DNA from: Armatimonadota bacterium
GTDB taxonomy: Bacteria; Armatimonadota; UBA5829; DTJY01
Length of the DNA: 64,000 nt
Direction: 5' to 3'
Assembly (NCBI GenBank): GCA_029907255.1
Contig: JARYMF010000009.1
Span: forward strand, 1 to 64,000
Below the pieces are notes generated by a model, which was not told where the DNA came from, searched no databases, and saw nothing but the letters and a program-made list of their open reading frames with translations. Shown here piece by piece: positions 18,367 to 50,236 of the stretch (position 1 is the first letter of the stretch; every line of letters starts with the position of its first letter). The position numbers and the translations under genes were made by a program.

Positions 18367-18383
18367 TTGGCATGATTCTTGAA
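18367..18383 (+). promoter_or_regulatory. degenerate sigma54-like site of a third unit
   Basis: TTGGCAT-GATTC-TTGAA keeps the GG of the -24 element and the spacing of the two perfect sites downstream, but has A in place of the invariant C of the -12 element. A terminator hairpin lies about 55 bases further on, the same unit plan as the two perfect copies. It may be a decayed copy. Confidence 0.3.
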
Positions 18384-18436
18384 GTGTTTGAAATTGGGTG
18401 ATTGCAAGAAACTTTTTTCATCGTTTCCTAAATAGC

Positions 18437-18486
18437 AAGAAAAATCCTGCTATAGACGCAATGGCAGGATTTTTCTTCTTTTTTCT
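18437..18486 (+). terminator. intrinsic terminator of the upstream third unit
   Basis: AAGAAAAATCCTGC (18437-18450) pairs over 14 bases with GCAGGATTTTTCTT (18464-18477). It is followed by CTTTTTTC. The A-tract before the stem means it can also act on the minus strand, although the only minus-strand gene here starts further downstream on that strand. Confidence 0.75.
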
Positions 18487-18508
18487 TAAAGTACGAGCCT
18501 TAAGAGGT

Positions 18509-18567
18509 GGAATTGGCACAAATTTTGCAAGTATTTTTGCTTGGAAAGAAACATCTTTTTCTCCTTC
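18509..18567 (+). repeat. 59-base direct repeat, copy 1 (partner at 18685-18743)
   Basis: The two copies are offset by 176 bases and differ at only two positions (18539 G against 18715 A; 18549 A against 18725 C by the same offset). The repeat covers the sigma54 promoter and the first half of each predicted RNA but not the terminator stems, which differ in sequence while keeping their structure. Confidence 0.9.
18513..18529 (+). promoter_or_regulatory. sigma54 (-24/-12) promoter, copy 1
   Basis: TTGGCAC (18513-18519), five bases, then TTGCA (18525-18529) match the sigma54 consensus TGGCAC-N5-TTGCW at every position. Transcription would begin at about 18539-18540. sigma54 promoters need an NtrC-type activator; none is encoded in the window, and no clear activator site was identified. 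Confidence 0.75.
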
Positions 18568-18609
18568 CTTACCTTTGCCTGCGGAGACGTTTCCGCAGGC
18601 ATATTTTTT
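18539..18609 (+). ncRNA. putative sigma54-dependent small RNA 1
   Basis: The predicted transcript of about 70 bases begins GCTTGGAAAGAAACATC. It has an unstructured CTTTTTCTCCTTCCTTACC segment and ends in a terminator of ten perfect pairs (18576-18585 with 18592-18601) and TATTTTTT. It contains no ATG and no ribosome site, so a peptide is unlikely. The TCTCCTTC part is complementary to Shine-Dalgarno sequences (GAAGGAGA), suggesting base-pairing with ribosome sites of mRNAs. The first 29 bases or so are the same as in copy 2 except for two bases. The role is inference. Confidence 0.65.
18576..18609 (+). terminator. terminator of small RNA 1
   Basis: TGCCTGCGGA and TCCGCAGGCA form a perfect 10-base stem with a six-base loop, followed by TATTTTTTG. 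Confidence 0.85.
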
Positions 18610-18684
18610 GTGAAATTATTTTAACCATGAGCAAGGGATAGCGCTTGCCTGGTAAAAATTTTGGGTCAAATCTATGAAAGTCGA

Positions 18685-18743
18685 GGAATTGGCACAAATT
18701 TTGCAAGTATTTTTACTTGGAAAGCAACATCTTTTTCTCCTTC
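18685..18743 (+). repeat. 59-base direct repeat, copy 2
   Basis: This is the partner of 18509-18567, with 57 of 59 bases the same. Sequence upstream and downstream of the repeat is unrelated between copies apart from the terminator fold. Confidence 0.9.
18689..18705 (+). promoter_or_regulatory. sigma54 (-24/-12) promoter, copy 2
   Basis: TTGGCAC (18689-18695), AAATT, then TTGCA (18701-18705) is identical to copy 1 and matches the consensus fully. Transcription would begin near 18715. Confidence 0.75.
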
Positions 18744-18783
18744 ACATTTCTTGGCCTGTGGGCAGGGCTCGCAGGCTTTTTTG
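18715..18783 (+). ncRNA. putative sigma54-dependent small RNA 2
   Basis: The predicted RNA of about 68 bases begins ACTTGGAAAGCAACATC. It carries the same CTTTTTCTCCTTC segment as RNA 1 and ends in its own terminator (stem 18754-18763 with 18767-18776). There is no start codon. Its 3' end points towards the convergent exported-protein gene ending at 18817. Retention of promoter and pairing segment while the terminator stem has diverged suggests selection on the RNA rather than a recent simple duplication. Confidence 0.65.
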
Positions 18784-18786
18784 TTT
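18754..18786 (+). terminator. terminator of small RNA 2
   Basis: GCCTGTGGGC pairs with GCTCGCAGGC over ten positions, two of them G-U, with an AGG loop and TTTTTTGTTT after it. Confidence 0.8.
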
Positions 18787-18816: not shown

Positions 18817-20028
18817 TTAGTCAGTTGTCTTAATATAAATAGCCCCATTAACCGCTTCAAGGGATATCTTTGCCTTTCCTGAGCCTAAAATAAGCTTCAG
18901 CCTATCTTTATCCTCAATCTCCGGCTTAATTGATGTTAAATTTTGGACACTGCCTTTGGTTGCCTGGGCGGTAATCTCTGCTGAGGCATTCTTGGGTAGC
19001 TCGATAGTAATGTCGTCACCCGTCGCACCAACGACCATCTCGCCGGTCTCAACCCGCGAGAATGAAATGGCGATCTCAGCGCCGGTTGATTTTAGCATAT
19101 GCACACCGCCAACCAGCGGGAAGTCTTTTAAGGCGATTGGAGCGCCAATGGATACAACGCTGAGTCGCGCTGGTCTAACAGGCTTTGACGGAGCGATTGT
19201 AATGGAGCCCTCCGTTGGCTCGAAGAGAGTCGGTATACCTGCCGGCACAGATATACGGTCGACAGCCAACCTTGCGGCGAGATTCAATACAAGGCGCTCA
19301 TCTATGCGGGAGAGCTCTCCAATGTCGTCTGTGCTGCCAAGGACCCTGATTTCGACGGTGTTTCCTTCGACGAGAAGAACGTTCAAGTCGGATCTTATGG
19401 ATTTGATGTGTACTTTTTCGGATGGTGGAACCGATATCGGTTGCCCGGCTGGAATCCTGGAGCGTGAGGTGACCTCAATCGCAGGTTCTTCACCTTGTTC
19501 CTCAGGAGACATTTTCTTAAGCATTTCTGGAATTTTGCCTTGGGTATTGCCAATCTTTGAGGGGTCCATGGTTCCGAATAACCGCGTTATGTTCACATCT
19601 CGATTCTTCCCTACGCGTGGACCAACAAAAATAATTAGTATCCCCTTGTTCTCATGGAACAATATTGCGCTTGCTTCGTCGCGAGCAAGGCTTTTGTCCA
19701 TTGTCTTCCATTCTTGGCTGGTGATTGCGGGTTCATAAAATTTCAAAATCTGCTCGGGCTCCGAGGTTGCGTCCACTCTAGTCATTACGATACTGACCTG
19801 TTTCAACTCCTTGAGGCCGAACAAGGGACCGAACTCCTTTGCTAGGTCATCAAGCACCTTGCCGGATGGCCAGTTGATTTCTCTTAATGTCTTTGCCCCT
19901 GGATACAGCGGAAGTTCAAGCTGTTCAAGCATGCTTTTTTTTGCAGGGGCGGCATGTAAGGCCGTGATTGAAATAACGGAAATTAATATGCTTAATATTG
20001 CTAACGTTGAGAAACGTCCGCTTCTCAC
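18817..20028 (-). CDS. exported protein with adhesin-like (DUF4097-type) C-terminus
   Basis: The 403-residue protein has a signal peptide (about 1-26, ending ITALHAAPA). The N-terminal half (LPLYPGAKTL, VSIVMTRVDATSEPEQILKFYEP) resembles DUF4252-like domains, and the C-terminal half is regular beta-strand repeats ending GSGKAKISLEAVNGAIYIKTTD. That pattern (residues alternating around GxI and NGxI turns) is typical of DUF4097 domains, often found next to sigma/anti-sigma genes. It probably sits in the periplasm or outer envelope. Its start overlaps the end of the anti-sigma gene by four bases, so it belongs to the ECF operon. The function is unknown. Confidence 0.65.
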   Translation of the reverse strand: MRSGRFSTLAILSILISVISITALHAAPAKKSMLEQLELPLYPGAKTLREINWPSGKVLDDLAKEFGPLFGLKELKQVSIVMTRVDATSEPEQILKFYEPAITSQEWKTMDKSLARDEASAILFHENKGILIIFVGPRVGKNRDVNITRLFGTMDPSKIGNTQGKIPEMLKKMSPEEQGEEPAIEVTSRSRIPAGQPISVPPSEKVHIKSIRSDLNVLLVEGNTVEIRVLGSTDDIGELSRIDERLVLNLAARLAVDRISVPAGIPTLFEPTEGSITIAPSKPVRPARLSVVSIGAPIALKDFPLVGGVHMLKSTGAEIAISFSRVETGEMVVGATGDDITIELPKNASAEITAQATKGSVQNLTSIKPEIEDKDRLKLILGSGKAKISLEAVNGAIYIKTTD

Positions 20029-20846
20029 AGTGTGCCTCCTTTTTCTACAGCCGTATTTATGTTTTCGCTATTTGTTCGCTCTGCTAGAATATCAGCGGTT
20101 TTTTGAAGGGTACCTCTCAATATTTCTAAGGTCTCGTTCATTGTCATTCCCGTTACTCCTAGATTGGATGCGACTACTACACTTGCCTCTTCATGTGATT
20201 TTTGTGCGGCAACAATGCTGTGTAAGATTTCAGCTTCCGATGGCTTTTCTTCAAAGATTTTGTCTGCGGATTTATTTTGCAAGCCTTCAGCAAGGGTGGG
20301 ATGTGGGCTCCTTTTGGCAATGATGGTTTGAGCAACTTTGGGTTTATGGTGTTTGCCTTCTCTTGTGTTTTGAGCAGTTGCCTGTACTGGACGCGATTTT
20401 GTTGCCGTATGATTTTGACCTTTGACTGAATTTGCCGTCTCCAGTTTTGTAGGAGTCTTTGTTGCCTGAACAATAGCAGGCTTTTTGTTTGGAAGTGATG
20501 GCGGCTCAGGACGGCTGATCAAAAAGAAGCCAAACGCTAGCAGTGTCGCAACAAGTCCTGCCGTGGCGGCTCCCACAGCCCAACGAGGCTTACGGGTGGC
20601 AGGTCGCTCTTGCTCCGCCAGAAACTTTTCTAGTTTATAGGCGAAGTTCTCTGCAAGCCAAGGCGAGGGTTCCTCGTCCTCCCAGAGCGCCATGGTTTCG
20701 CGCAGAGCAACAAGCGTGGTATGCTCTTCACGGCATGCCGAACATTCGGCAAAGTGTTGCTCCAGAAGGCGCTTTTCGCGTTCCGAAAGCTCGCCGTCTA
20801 TTGCAGCAGAGGCCAGAATTCTAGCTTTTTTACATCTCATTGCCAT
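20025..20846 (-). CDS. zinc-finger (zf-HC2) anti-sigma factor
   Basis: The N-terminal zf-HC2 domain has an early cysteine in MRCKKARILASAAIDGELS and the HxxxCxxC motif in QHFAECSACREE. One membrane helix (WAVGAATAGLVATLLAFGFFLI, about residues 88-109) follows, then a K/T/P-rich region of about 160 residues. This is the usual plan of a single-pass anti-sigma factor that holds an ECF sigma at the membrane until a signal arrives. The ECF sigma gene lies 16 bases upstream and the exported protein gene overlaps its end by four bases. The alternative start at the ATG two codons downstream makes no functional difference. Confidence 0.87.
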   Translation of the reverse strand: MAMRCKKARILASAAIDGELSEREKRLLEQHFAECSACREEHTTLVALRETMALWEDEEPSPWLAENFAYKLEKFLAEQERPATRKPRWAVGAATAGLVATLLAFGFFLISRPEPPSLPNKKPAIVQATKTPTKLETANSVKGQNHTATKSRPVQATAQNTREGKHHKPKVAQTIIAKRSPHPTLAEGLQNKSADKIFEEKPSEAEILHSIVAAQKSHEEASVVVASNLGVTGMTMNETLEILRGTLQKTADILAERTNSENINTAVEKGGTL

Positions 20847-20862
20847 TACCTCATTCGGCAGT

Positions 20863-21474
20863 TTATGCAGGAGCCTTTAGGTATCCTAGTCTTTCCTTGA
20901 GCTTCTGCCTGGCGCGGAAGATTAATACCTTCACGCTTCCAATTGGGCAGCCGAGAACATCGGCAATCTCTTTGTATTCCATGTCGTGATACTCTCTTAA
21001 GATGATTGCCGTTCGCTCCTTTTCTGGAAGTGTGTTTATTGCTTCTTCGATTGCATTCCGAAGCTCAACTCGAATCAAGTGATTTTCGACAGATGAATTG
21101 CCTGTTTCAAAGTAAGGCTCTATTTGATTATCCGAGTGATTTAGTCCTATGTTGTCGTCAAGTATTGTTTCAGGACGTCTTGCTCGATGCCTGAGATAAT
21201 CTCGGCATTGGTTTCCGGCAACGGAAAAAAGCCAAGTTGTAAACTTTGCATCTGAACCGCGAAAGGTCTGTCCAAATCTACACACTTTCAGGAATGTTTC
21301 CTGAACAAGATCTTCCGCAGTCTCCCGACAACCCACCATTCGGAAAAAGAAGTTGAACAATGGCTTTTGGAACCTAGCGAAAAGCTCCTCCATGGCAGAT
21401 GAATCGCCCGCTTGGAACCTCGCCATCAGTTCCTCGTCGGTCTCCCTGGCTTGATTCGTTGCCGCATGCATCAT
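20863..21474 (-). CDS. ECF-type RNA polymerase sigma factor
   Basis: The 203-residue protein has sigma region 2 (LFARFQKPLFNFFFRMVGCRETAEDLVQETFLKVC, residues about 31-65) and sigma region 4 with its helix-turn-helix (LPEKERTAIILREYHDMEYKEIADVLGCPIGSVKV). Sigma regions 1 and 3 are absent, as expected for ECF (sigma-E-like) factors. It is the first gene of a three-gene operon with its anti-sigma and an exported protein, which suggests control of an envelope response. A possible self-recognised promoter lies immediately upstream. Confidence 0.93.
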   Translation of the reverse strand: MMHAATNQARETDEELMARFQAGDSSAMEELFARFQKPLFNFFFRMVGCRETAEDLVQETFLKVCRFGQTFRGSDAKFTTWLFSVAGNQCRDYLRHRARRPETILDDNIGLNHSDNQIEPYFETGNSSVENHLIRVELRNAIEEAINTLPEKERTAIILREYHDMEYKEIADVLGCPIGSVKVLIFRARQKLKERLGYLKAPA

Positions 21475-48826: not shown

Positions 48827-50236
48827 CTAACGGCGGCGCTGGCGAGAGGACAATATCTTCATGGCTTCGCGGTATTTGACGACGGTGCGGCGGGCCACAT
48901 TATAGCCGCGTTCGTTAAGTATTCGAGCTATCTCCTGGTCGCTAAGGGGGTGCGCAGGGTCTTCATTCTCGATAAGTTGGGCAATGATATCTGAGACGGA
49001 GTGGGATGAATTGAAGAAGAAGTCGAAAGGCACAACCTCTTGGGTGGGAATCTGAACGTATTTGTTTGCTGTTGCACGGCTGACCGTGGATTCGTGAATT
49101 CCAAGCTCTTCTGCTATCTTTACGCGAGTAAGTGGCCTAAGGAATAACCTTGAGCCGGTGTCAAGAAAGCCGTGTTGATGTTCAATAATACGCTTTGTTA
49201 TGTTGCGAAGAGTTCTTCGGCGCTGGTTGAGGTTTTTTATGAAAAGGTCGGCACGCTCGACGTAGTCAAATATGTGTTTTTTTTCGTCTTCTGAAATGTT
49301 TTTTGTTTTGCCGCTTTTCAAGTCATTGTATATCTGGCGGTAGTATGGGTTTATTGTAAGCGAAAGATGCTCGTTGAAGACAACATCTATCTCATATCCG
49401 GTTGGAGTGCGGCGAATGATTACATCAGGGCGAACCGACAGTTTAGCATCGGTGGGCTTGTAGTCCCAGGGTGCCACAAAACTGCCGGCAGGATGAGGAT
49501 TTAACTTTGTTTGGATAAACCTTAGTGCTGCCCGAACATTCTCAGGCTTTGTCCTTAATTTTCGAGCGATACGGTTGATTTTTCGCCCGACCATTTCTTC
49601 CCAGCAATTCTCGACTATGCGTTGGGCAAGCGTATTTCCTCTACCTTGTTCATCAAGGTAACGGAGTTGGATGAGAAGGCATTCCCGTAAGTCTCGCGCT
49701 CCTACGCCAGGTGGATCGAGGGTCTGCAGCACTGCCAAGGCTTCGGCAATCTCGTCGTCGGTGGCATTAAGCTCGAGAGTAAGCTCGAGAAGATCACACT
49801 CAAGATAGCCCCTGTCATTTATGTAGTTCACGAGATAGTCGGCGATCTCGTAGGTTTTCCCCGTCACTAAGGCTCGGAGTTGGTTGCGTAGATGCTCGGG
49901 TAAGGTAACATCTGCCTGCAAACTGCTGATTGGGTCATTATCATCATCAGGGTCGAATGTAAATTCAAATTGGGGCTCTATCTCGTAGATTGAGATATCG
50001 GTTTCTTCGTTTTGTGCAGCCAGCTTTTGGAATGAGCAGTCCTTGCACATAAAAGGTGCAAGCTCACACCCCGAACAAGGTTCCTCGTCTTCGAGCTCGA
50101 GCGCTGGATTTTCTGCGAGTTCCTGCTCGATTGCTTCCTGAAGCTCCAGACTGGATAGCTGCAGAAGGGTATTCGCCATTATGATCTTCGGATCTATCCG
50201 CTGTTGCTGTGTTTGAGATTGATCCTGGATCAGCAA
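48827..50236 (-). CDS. rpoN: RNA polymerase sigma-54 factor RpoN with N-terminal CxxC-x6-CxxC
   Basis: The 469-residue protein has RpoN region I (glutamine-rich, MANTLLQLSSLELQEAIEQEL), the core-binding domain (LDPPGVGARDLRECLLIQL), a helix-turn-helix (VKIAEELGIHESTVSRATANK) and the RpoN box ARRTVVKYRE at residues 448-457. sigma54 directs polymerase to -24/-12 promoters and needs an activator ATPase. Cysteines at 54, 57, 64 and 67 in the acidic region II form CxxC-x6-CxxC, unusual for RpoN, perhaps a zinc site. Translation begins at a TTG nine bases after GGAGG. Two perfect sigma54 promoters lie at 18513 and 18689. Confidence 0.95.
   Translation of the reverse strand: MLIQDQSQTQQQRIDPKIIMANTLLQLSSLELQEAIEQELAENPALELEDEEPCSGCELAPFMCKDCSFQKLAAQNEETDISIYEIEPQFEFTFDPDDDNDPISSLQADVTLPEHLRNQLRALVTGKTYEIADYLVNYINDRGYLECDLLELTLELNATDDEIAEALAVLQTLDPPGVGARDLRECLLIQLRYLDEQGRGNTLAQRIVENCWEEMVGRKINRIARKLRTKPENVRAALRFIQTKLNPHPAGSFVAPWDYKPTDAKLSVRPDVIIRRTPTGYEIDVVFNEHLSLTINPYYRQIYNDLKSGKTKNISEDEKKHIFDYVERADLFIKNLNQRRRTLRNITKRIIEHQHGFLDTGSRLFLRPLTRVKIAEELGIHESTVSRATANKYVQIPTQEVVPFDFFFNSSHSVSDIIAQLIENEDPAHPLSDQEIARILNERGYNVARRTVVKYREAMKILSSRQRRR

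Follow-up and report, generated by a model that had tools for sequence, protein, structure and literature searches.

The window analysed here, a 64-kb stretch of DNA, forms part of contig C9 of a 3.23-Mb Armatimonadota MAG (G000). Its forward strand carries an array of sigma54 units at 18367–18784, which includes two direct repeats of 59 bases (18509–18567 and 18685–18743) with 57 identical positions. Inside each repeat lies TTGGCAC-N5-TTGCA, the promoter TTGGCACAAATTTTGCA of unit a (18513–18529, 25.6 bits) and the same sequence in unit b (18689–18705); both meet the −24/−12 criterion, with GG-N10-GC at the correct distance. When up to one mismatch was allowed, units a and b were the only sigma54 matches in the 64 kb, where shuffling expects 0.54, and the whole genome held 63 matches versus 14 for the reversed pattern. 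The window also encodes RpoN (sigma54) itself on the reverse strand (48827–50236), with all three Pfam domains.

Start positions of the RNAs were assumed to lie 12 nt past the −12 C of each promoter, which gives a predicted small RNA a of about 70 nt (18540–18609) and a predicted small RNA b of about 69 nt (18716–18784), both on the forward strand. Predicted intrinsic terminators close the two units at 18576–18601 and 18753–18777 (annotated through to 18609 and 18783), with stems unlike in sequence, and neither RNA has an obvious protein start: ATG is absent, while TTG triplets occur twice in a and three times in b, and one GTG occurs in b. The invariant pairing segment of unit a, CATCTTTTTCTCCTTC, combines an anti-start-codon and an anti-Shine-Dalgarno stretch (18552–18567), and that of unit b, CATCTTTTTCTCCTTCAC (18728–18745), is the complement of a PEP-CTERM start region on contig C6. 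The sequence CTTTTTCTCCTTC, shared by both segments, has just two occurrences in the window (18555 and 18731), against a chance expectation of 0.16 with one mismatch allowed. Although many single-sequence folds predicted a 5′ hairpin, RNAalifold returned zero consensus pairs, and a conserved 5′ hairpin with covariation is therefore not claimed. No convincing common motif that could serve as a shared activator site was found upstream of the units.

A third unit (18367–18483) lies upstream of a and b. Its slightly degenerate sigma54-like promoter, TTGGCATGATTCTTGAA (18367–18383), scores 20.1 bits (a and b aside, nothing else in the window exceeds 13.0 bits) and is unchanged in a sister species (G001), where the unit as a whole is nearly invariant. 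The third predicted RNA (18394–18483, forward strand) has a terminator stem at 18437–18477 and lacks the CTCCTTC core. Beside the array, on the reverse strand at 18817–21474, genes for an ECF sigma factor, a zf-HC2 probable anti-sigma factor and a weakly matching DUF4097 protein lie in a row.

These observations bear on an original prediction made for the locus, which had described two nearly identical repeats with full sigma54 consensus, a strong terminator of differing stem sequence after each unit, a shared anti-Shine-Dalgarno segment and no start codon. On sequence checking, the repeats, promoters, terminators and shared segment held. The absence of a start codon held for ATG only, because TTG and GTG triplets are present, and the count of two units held in part, the third unit having been missed.

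The distribution of the units was assessed with R1, a 67-position sequence model built from 22 members. Full-length relatives were retrieved at E <1e-5 in 21 of the 28 genomes of the class, with promoter and pairing segment conserved; named relatives carrying the RNA are mostly labelled as Armatimonadetes or Armatimonadota MAGs. In the rest of the phylum, R1 yielded no full-length relatives, only promoter-like or weak partial matches, and no full-length match was obtained in two genomes of the class positive for both PEP-CTERM genes and RpoN (G012 and G019). Two matches outside the phylum (L059 and L064) were rejected as probable chance hits lacking a proper promoter and terminator. Across the class, promoter, core and terminator are conserved while the flanks diverge, which rules out a chance repeat as the origin of the units. 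Tandem arrays recur in G003 (three units), G022 (three), G014, G004 and G017, and in G004, a member of another genus, the pair adjoins a homologue of the same neighbour gene as in the window (18817–20028). The own genome contains another full copy at C18:21618 and, at C1:214662, a core with terminator but without promoter. A divergent unit at C8:120499 (L180/L303), in which ACTCTACTCCTTCC and a pair of strong hairpins come after a perfect sigma54 promoter, with a terminator at the end, is inferred, with good likelihood, to be a further small RNA of this genome.

A sister RNA type with the core CCATCTTTTCCTCCTTCC and the terminator GGGCTTCGC..GCGAAGCC was also observed (L182, L183, L184, L185, L187 and L188 in G023, G022, G008, G012 and G016; L186 in G015). 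It has no sigma54 promoter; often a conserved AGTTGTG..CACAACT dyad is located upstream, with TGGCAC immediately ahead of the RNA.

The columns of CATCTTTTTCTCCTTC show the highest conservation within the transcript. Its reverse complement, GAAGGAGAAAAAGATG, reads as a Shine-Dalgarno sequence, a spacer and a start codon, and the invariant segment CAUCUUUUUCUCCUUC likewise has the reverse complement GAAGGAGAAAAAGAUG, a ribosome site plus spacer plus AUG. Among the loci returned from the 28 genomes of the class, 17 open reading frames of at least 100 aa begin with the start signature AAGGAGAAAAAGATGA (at most one mismatch), and PEP-CTERM proteins account for 9 of the 17; of the remaining eight, two belong to genomes in which PEP-CTERM genes are absent (G013 and G025). 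The number of PEP-CTERM genes per genome of the class ranges from about 0 to 38.

Target searches relied on patterns, lists of PEP-CTERM genes and control genes from about 64–100 kb per genome. Leaders, defined as −60 to +15 with start codons assigned by a simple rule, were compared between PEP-CTERM genes and other genes of the same genome in G000, G003, G016 and G022. By duplex energy, PEP-CTERM leaders pair more strongly than other leaders for most units (p 0.02 to 1e-7). Against controls matched for Shine-Dalgarno sequence, the preference was significant in G016 (p 5e-5), G022 (p 1e-4), G003 unit a (p 0.02) and G000 unit a (p 0.02), and not significant for G003 units c and d or G000 units b and c. 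None of 100 dinucleotide-shuffled RNAs matched the observed mean difference for G016, G022 or G003 unit a, and 2 of 100 did so for G000 unit a; G000 units b and c showed no overall preference for PEP-CTERM leaders over shuffled controls, and single targets alone stand out. Among PEP-CTERM genes not driven by sigma54, 22 of 56 showed strong pairing (z < −2). The best predicted partner of unit a is the PEP-CTERM mRNA L202 (G000:C2:333176-334219; −37.7 kcal/mol), to which pairing is lengthened by CCTTACCTTT after the pairing segment; in this duplex, CCUUACCUUU extends the match to AAAGGUAAGG. Unit b finds its best partner in the PEP-CTERM mRNA L198 (G000:C6:2180-3334), with an 18-base perfect duplex through the AUG (−33.5 kcal/mol). 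Since the best PEP-CTERM targets differ, the siblings appear specialised rather than redundant. Units a and b combine a conserved pairing segment with targets in trans, on computational grounds only, and the mRNAs of PEP-CTERM (exosortase-sorted) proteins are, judging from sequence alone, the likely targets. As a separate observation, five PEP-CTERM leaders of G016 (L244, L245, L246, L249 and L250) have about 45 bases in common, AAGCGGGCAATAGACGCCGCTGGAGCCAAACCACA, for which Rfam gave no match at E up to 0.05.

Two families, f3 and f5, carry an additional segment, AGUGUUGUGG, and its complement is found in PEP-CTERM leaders, on the 5′ side of a hairpin; the RNAs of both families have AGTGTTGTGG 3′ of the core. 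The pattern CACAACAC-N16-46-AGGAG-N4-9-ATG returned 14 matches versus 5 for a reversed control. Where a hairpin of the type GGCTCCGAAGAGAGCC separates the two sites, all five cases with a complete open reading frame encode PEP-CTERM proteins; of the two remaining hairpin-bearing matches, one falls at an interrupted gene and the other at the end of a contig. The second site, CCACAACACU, lies outside the ribosome site and marks PEP-CTERM leaders. Two complementary sites bracketing a leader hairpin are difficult to explain without pairing of the RNA to that leader. The RNAs of the family to which the own genome's units belong lack the second segment.

Presence of the RNA follows both rpoN and PEP-CTERM genes. 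Twenty of the 21 RNA-positive genomes possess rpoN, the exception (G011) being 69% complete, and all 21 possess PEP-CTERM genes (Fisher p 0.001 and 0.002, respectively); these tests overstate independence, because the genomes are related. The five genomes without intact rpoN (G002, G010, G013, G021 and G025) have no RNA, including G021, which has 26 PEP-CTERM matches yet neither RNA nor intact rpoN. A degenerate rpoN remnant with two stops was noted at G013:C43:31741-31884, in a genome devoid of PEP-CTERM genes and of the RNA. RpoN dependence of PEP-CTERM genes has been reported in Proteobacteria (PMC1569441, PMC9850573), and sigma54 promoters ahead of PEP-CTERM genes, as in the PrsK/PrsR regulon, were found here: 14 of 80 PEP-CTERM genes have a strong site in the 230 nt preceding them, as against 0 of 237 controls. 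Pairing with the RNAs is weaker for the sigma54-driven PEP-CTERM genes than for the rest of the PEP-CTERM genes (median z −0.1 vs −1.6, two-sided p 0.003), a comparison made after the data had been seen.

The activator of the RNA promoters remains a matter of inference. PrsR was considered and rejected, as the best TIGR02915 match scores 433 bits, below the NCBI cut-off of 502.6; in the own genome this protein is more likely a flagellar regulator because it is encoded within a flagellar gene cluster, though beside a second rpoN. In that region (L301, 6514–12109, contig C7), the second rpoN, an NtrC-type regulator and histidine kinases stand directly ahead of flagellar genes, probably constituting a flagellar sigma54 system, an assignment that is itself inferred. 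Elsewhere (L310, 2684–7913, contig C3), a GAF/PAS histidine kinase, an NtrC-type sigma54 activator and a receiver-PilZ protein are encoded in a row. Counterparts of this activator (G000:C3:148424) occur in every RNA-positive genome; it could regulate the RNA promoters but is no more than a candidate.

Taken from sequence alone, with no transcript data, the array is likely to encode sigma54-driven, trans-acting small RNAs that pair with PEP-CTERM start regions and repress translation, with siblings having targets of their own. In the proposed mechanism, RpoN together with an NtrC-type enhancer-binding protein would produce RNAs of about 70 nt from the −24/−12 promoters, both transcription and activator being inferred. 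Units a and b would expose CAUCUUUUUCUCCUUC. PEP-CTERM proteins are exported and sorted by exosortase, and by computation this segment is complementary to their mRNAs from the Shine-Dalgarno sequence through the spacer to the start codon. Initiation should be blocked because the pairing covers both the Shine-Dalgarno sequence and the AUG; ribosome binding would be prevented and PEP-CTERM synthesis lowered. The sequence immediately 3′ of the core would set the best target of each sibling (contig C2 for a, contig C6 for b), and Hfq, which is encoded in the genome, may assist the pairing.

The original prediction had proposed sigma54-driven sibling RNAs, acting on ribosome sites, in a lineage unrelated to Vibrio and the enterics. 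The lineage claim is correct, the organism belonging to Armatimonadota. The sibling RNAs are supported by class-wide conservation and co-occurrence with rpoN, transcription still being inferred, and action on ribosome sites is supported computationally, the segment fitting mRNA ribosome sites better than controls. Absent from that account were the PEP-CTERM targets, the fact that pairing takes in the AUG, the third unit and any specialisation between siblings a and b.

Several other explanations were weighed. The strongest, which we nonetheless regard as unlikely, is that the RNAs are real but act broadly as anti-Shine-Dalgarno riboregulators whose many targets are unrelated to one another, with PEP-CTERM genes surfacing only through their strong purine-rich ribosome sites. 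In its favour, the core would pair with any site of the GAAGGAGA type, eight of the 17 start-signature reading frames are not PEP-CTERM genes, and G003 units c and d fail to beat the matched controls. Against it, G016, G022 and G003 unit a beat both matched controls and shuffled RNAs, PEP-CTERM leaders are marked by a second site away from the ribosome site, and sigma54-driven PEP-CTERM genes mostly escape pairing. Activation instead of repression, for instance through the unfolding of leader hairpins in the way that GlmZ acts on glmS, is considerably less probable; the f3 and f5 pairing sites on both sides of the leader hairpin speak for it, whereas the conserved pairing spans the Shine-Dalgarno sequence and the AUG. 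More doubtful still is action in cis, with the units serving the neighbour gene at 18817–20028, for instance, as leaders or as antisense RNA. The array does adjoin the 3′ end of that gene, also in G004, but every unit is terminated ahead of it, one copy elsewhere adjoins an unrelated BioY-like transporter gene, and the pairing segment fits PEP-CTERM start regions on other contigs. That the sites are non-functional repeats or sequester sigma54 finds support only in the absence of transcript data and can almost be dismissed, since core and terminators are kept class-wide despite diverging flanks.

Comparison with known systems places the RNAs in a familiar kind. No Rfam family reached its gathering score for the units, with weak matches alone at E up to 5; the covariance models for Qrr and for GlmY/GlmZ do not match, and NmsR (RF02877) scored 24.2 and 22.5 bits against a gathering score of 52, so the units are not members of that family. 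Like Vibrio Qrr, the units have sigma54 promoters, several sibling copies and trans-acting pairing; they differ in phylum, core and targets, Qrr acting on quorum-sensing regulators and the Armatimonadota RNAs on predicted PEP-CTERM mRNAs. Enteric GlmY/GlmZ are likewise sigma54-linked siblings with a cell-envelope role (PMC7073468), although GlmZ activates glmS. Myxococcal Pxr also has paralogues and an apparent sigma54 promoter and adjoins a sigma54 response-regulator gene (PMC5568312), but has a developmental role in another lineage. Neisseria NmsRA/NmsRB (RcoF, NgncR_162/163) are tandem siblings with anti-Shine-Dalgarno motifs that repress many mRNAs (PMC5362039); they differ in their sigma70-type promoters, RelA control and TCA-cycle targets. 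PrsK/PrsR regulation of the PEP-CTERM/exosortase system shares RpoN promoters ahead of PEP-CTERM genes (Haft 2006, PMC1569441; PMC9850573), but no RNA arm is described there, and no protein examined here exceeds the PrsR cut-off. In the open-access literature searched, we found no report linking PEP-CTERM or exosortase with a regulatory small RNA and no paper joining small RNAs and RpoN in Armatimonadota. Sigma54 sibling RNAs are a known kind; what appears new is the present family, together with the phylum that carries it and the class of mRNAs that it targets.

Under the preferred reading, repression in trans of PEP-CTERM translation, the surface-protein repertoire may shift when RpoN is active, since a further set of PEP-CTERM genes, with leaders that are mostly non-pairing, is itself driven by RpoN. 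This repertoire switch is a proposal only, given that the comparison was post hoc and covered just 10 genes. A bolder version, slightly more apt to prove wrong than right, gives RpoN two arms with which to switch the surface proteome: it transcribes one PEP-CTERM set and silences another through class-wide sibling RNAs pairing with start sites, in some families at two sites bracketing a hairpin.

Among environmental bacteria, PEP-CTERM/exosortase ranks as a major system for sorting surface proteins, and its described regulation ends at RpoN with PrsK/PrsR. The two-armed switch, if true, would add a layer of RNA control over exosortase-sorted proteins for which we found no precedent. In enterics, sigmaE RNAs hold down outer-membrane proteins; an RNA family devoted to a secreted-protein class in Armatimonadota would, if confirmed, parallel them and extend sigma54-driven sibling RNAs to this little-studied phylum, with target predictions that can be tested for every genome of the class.
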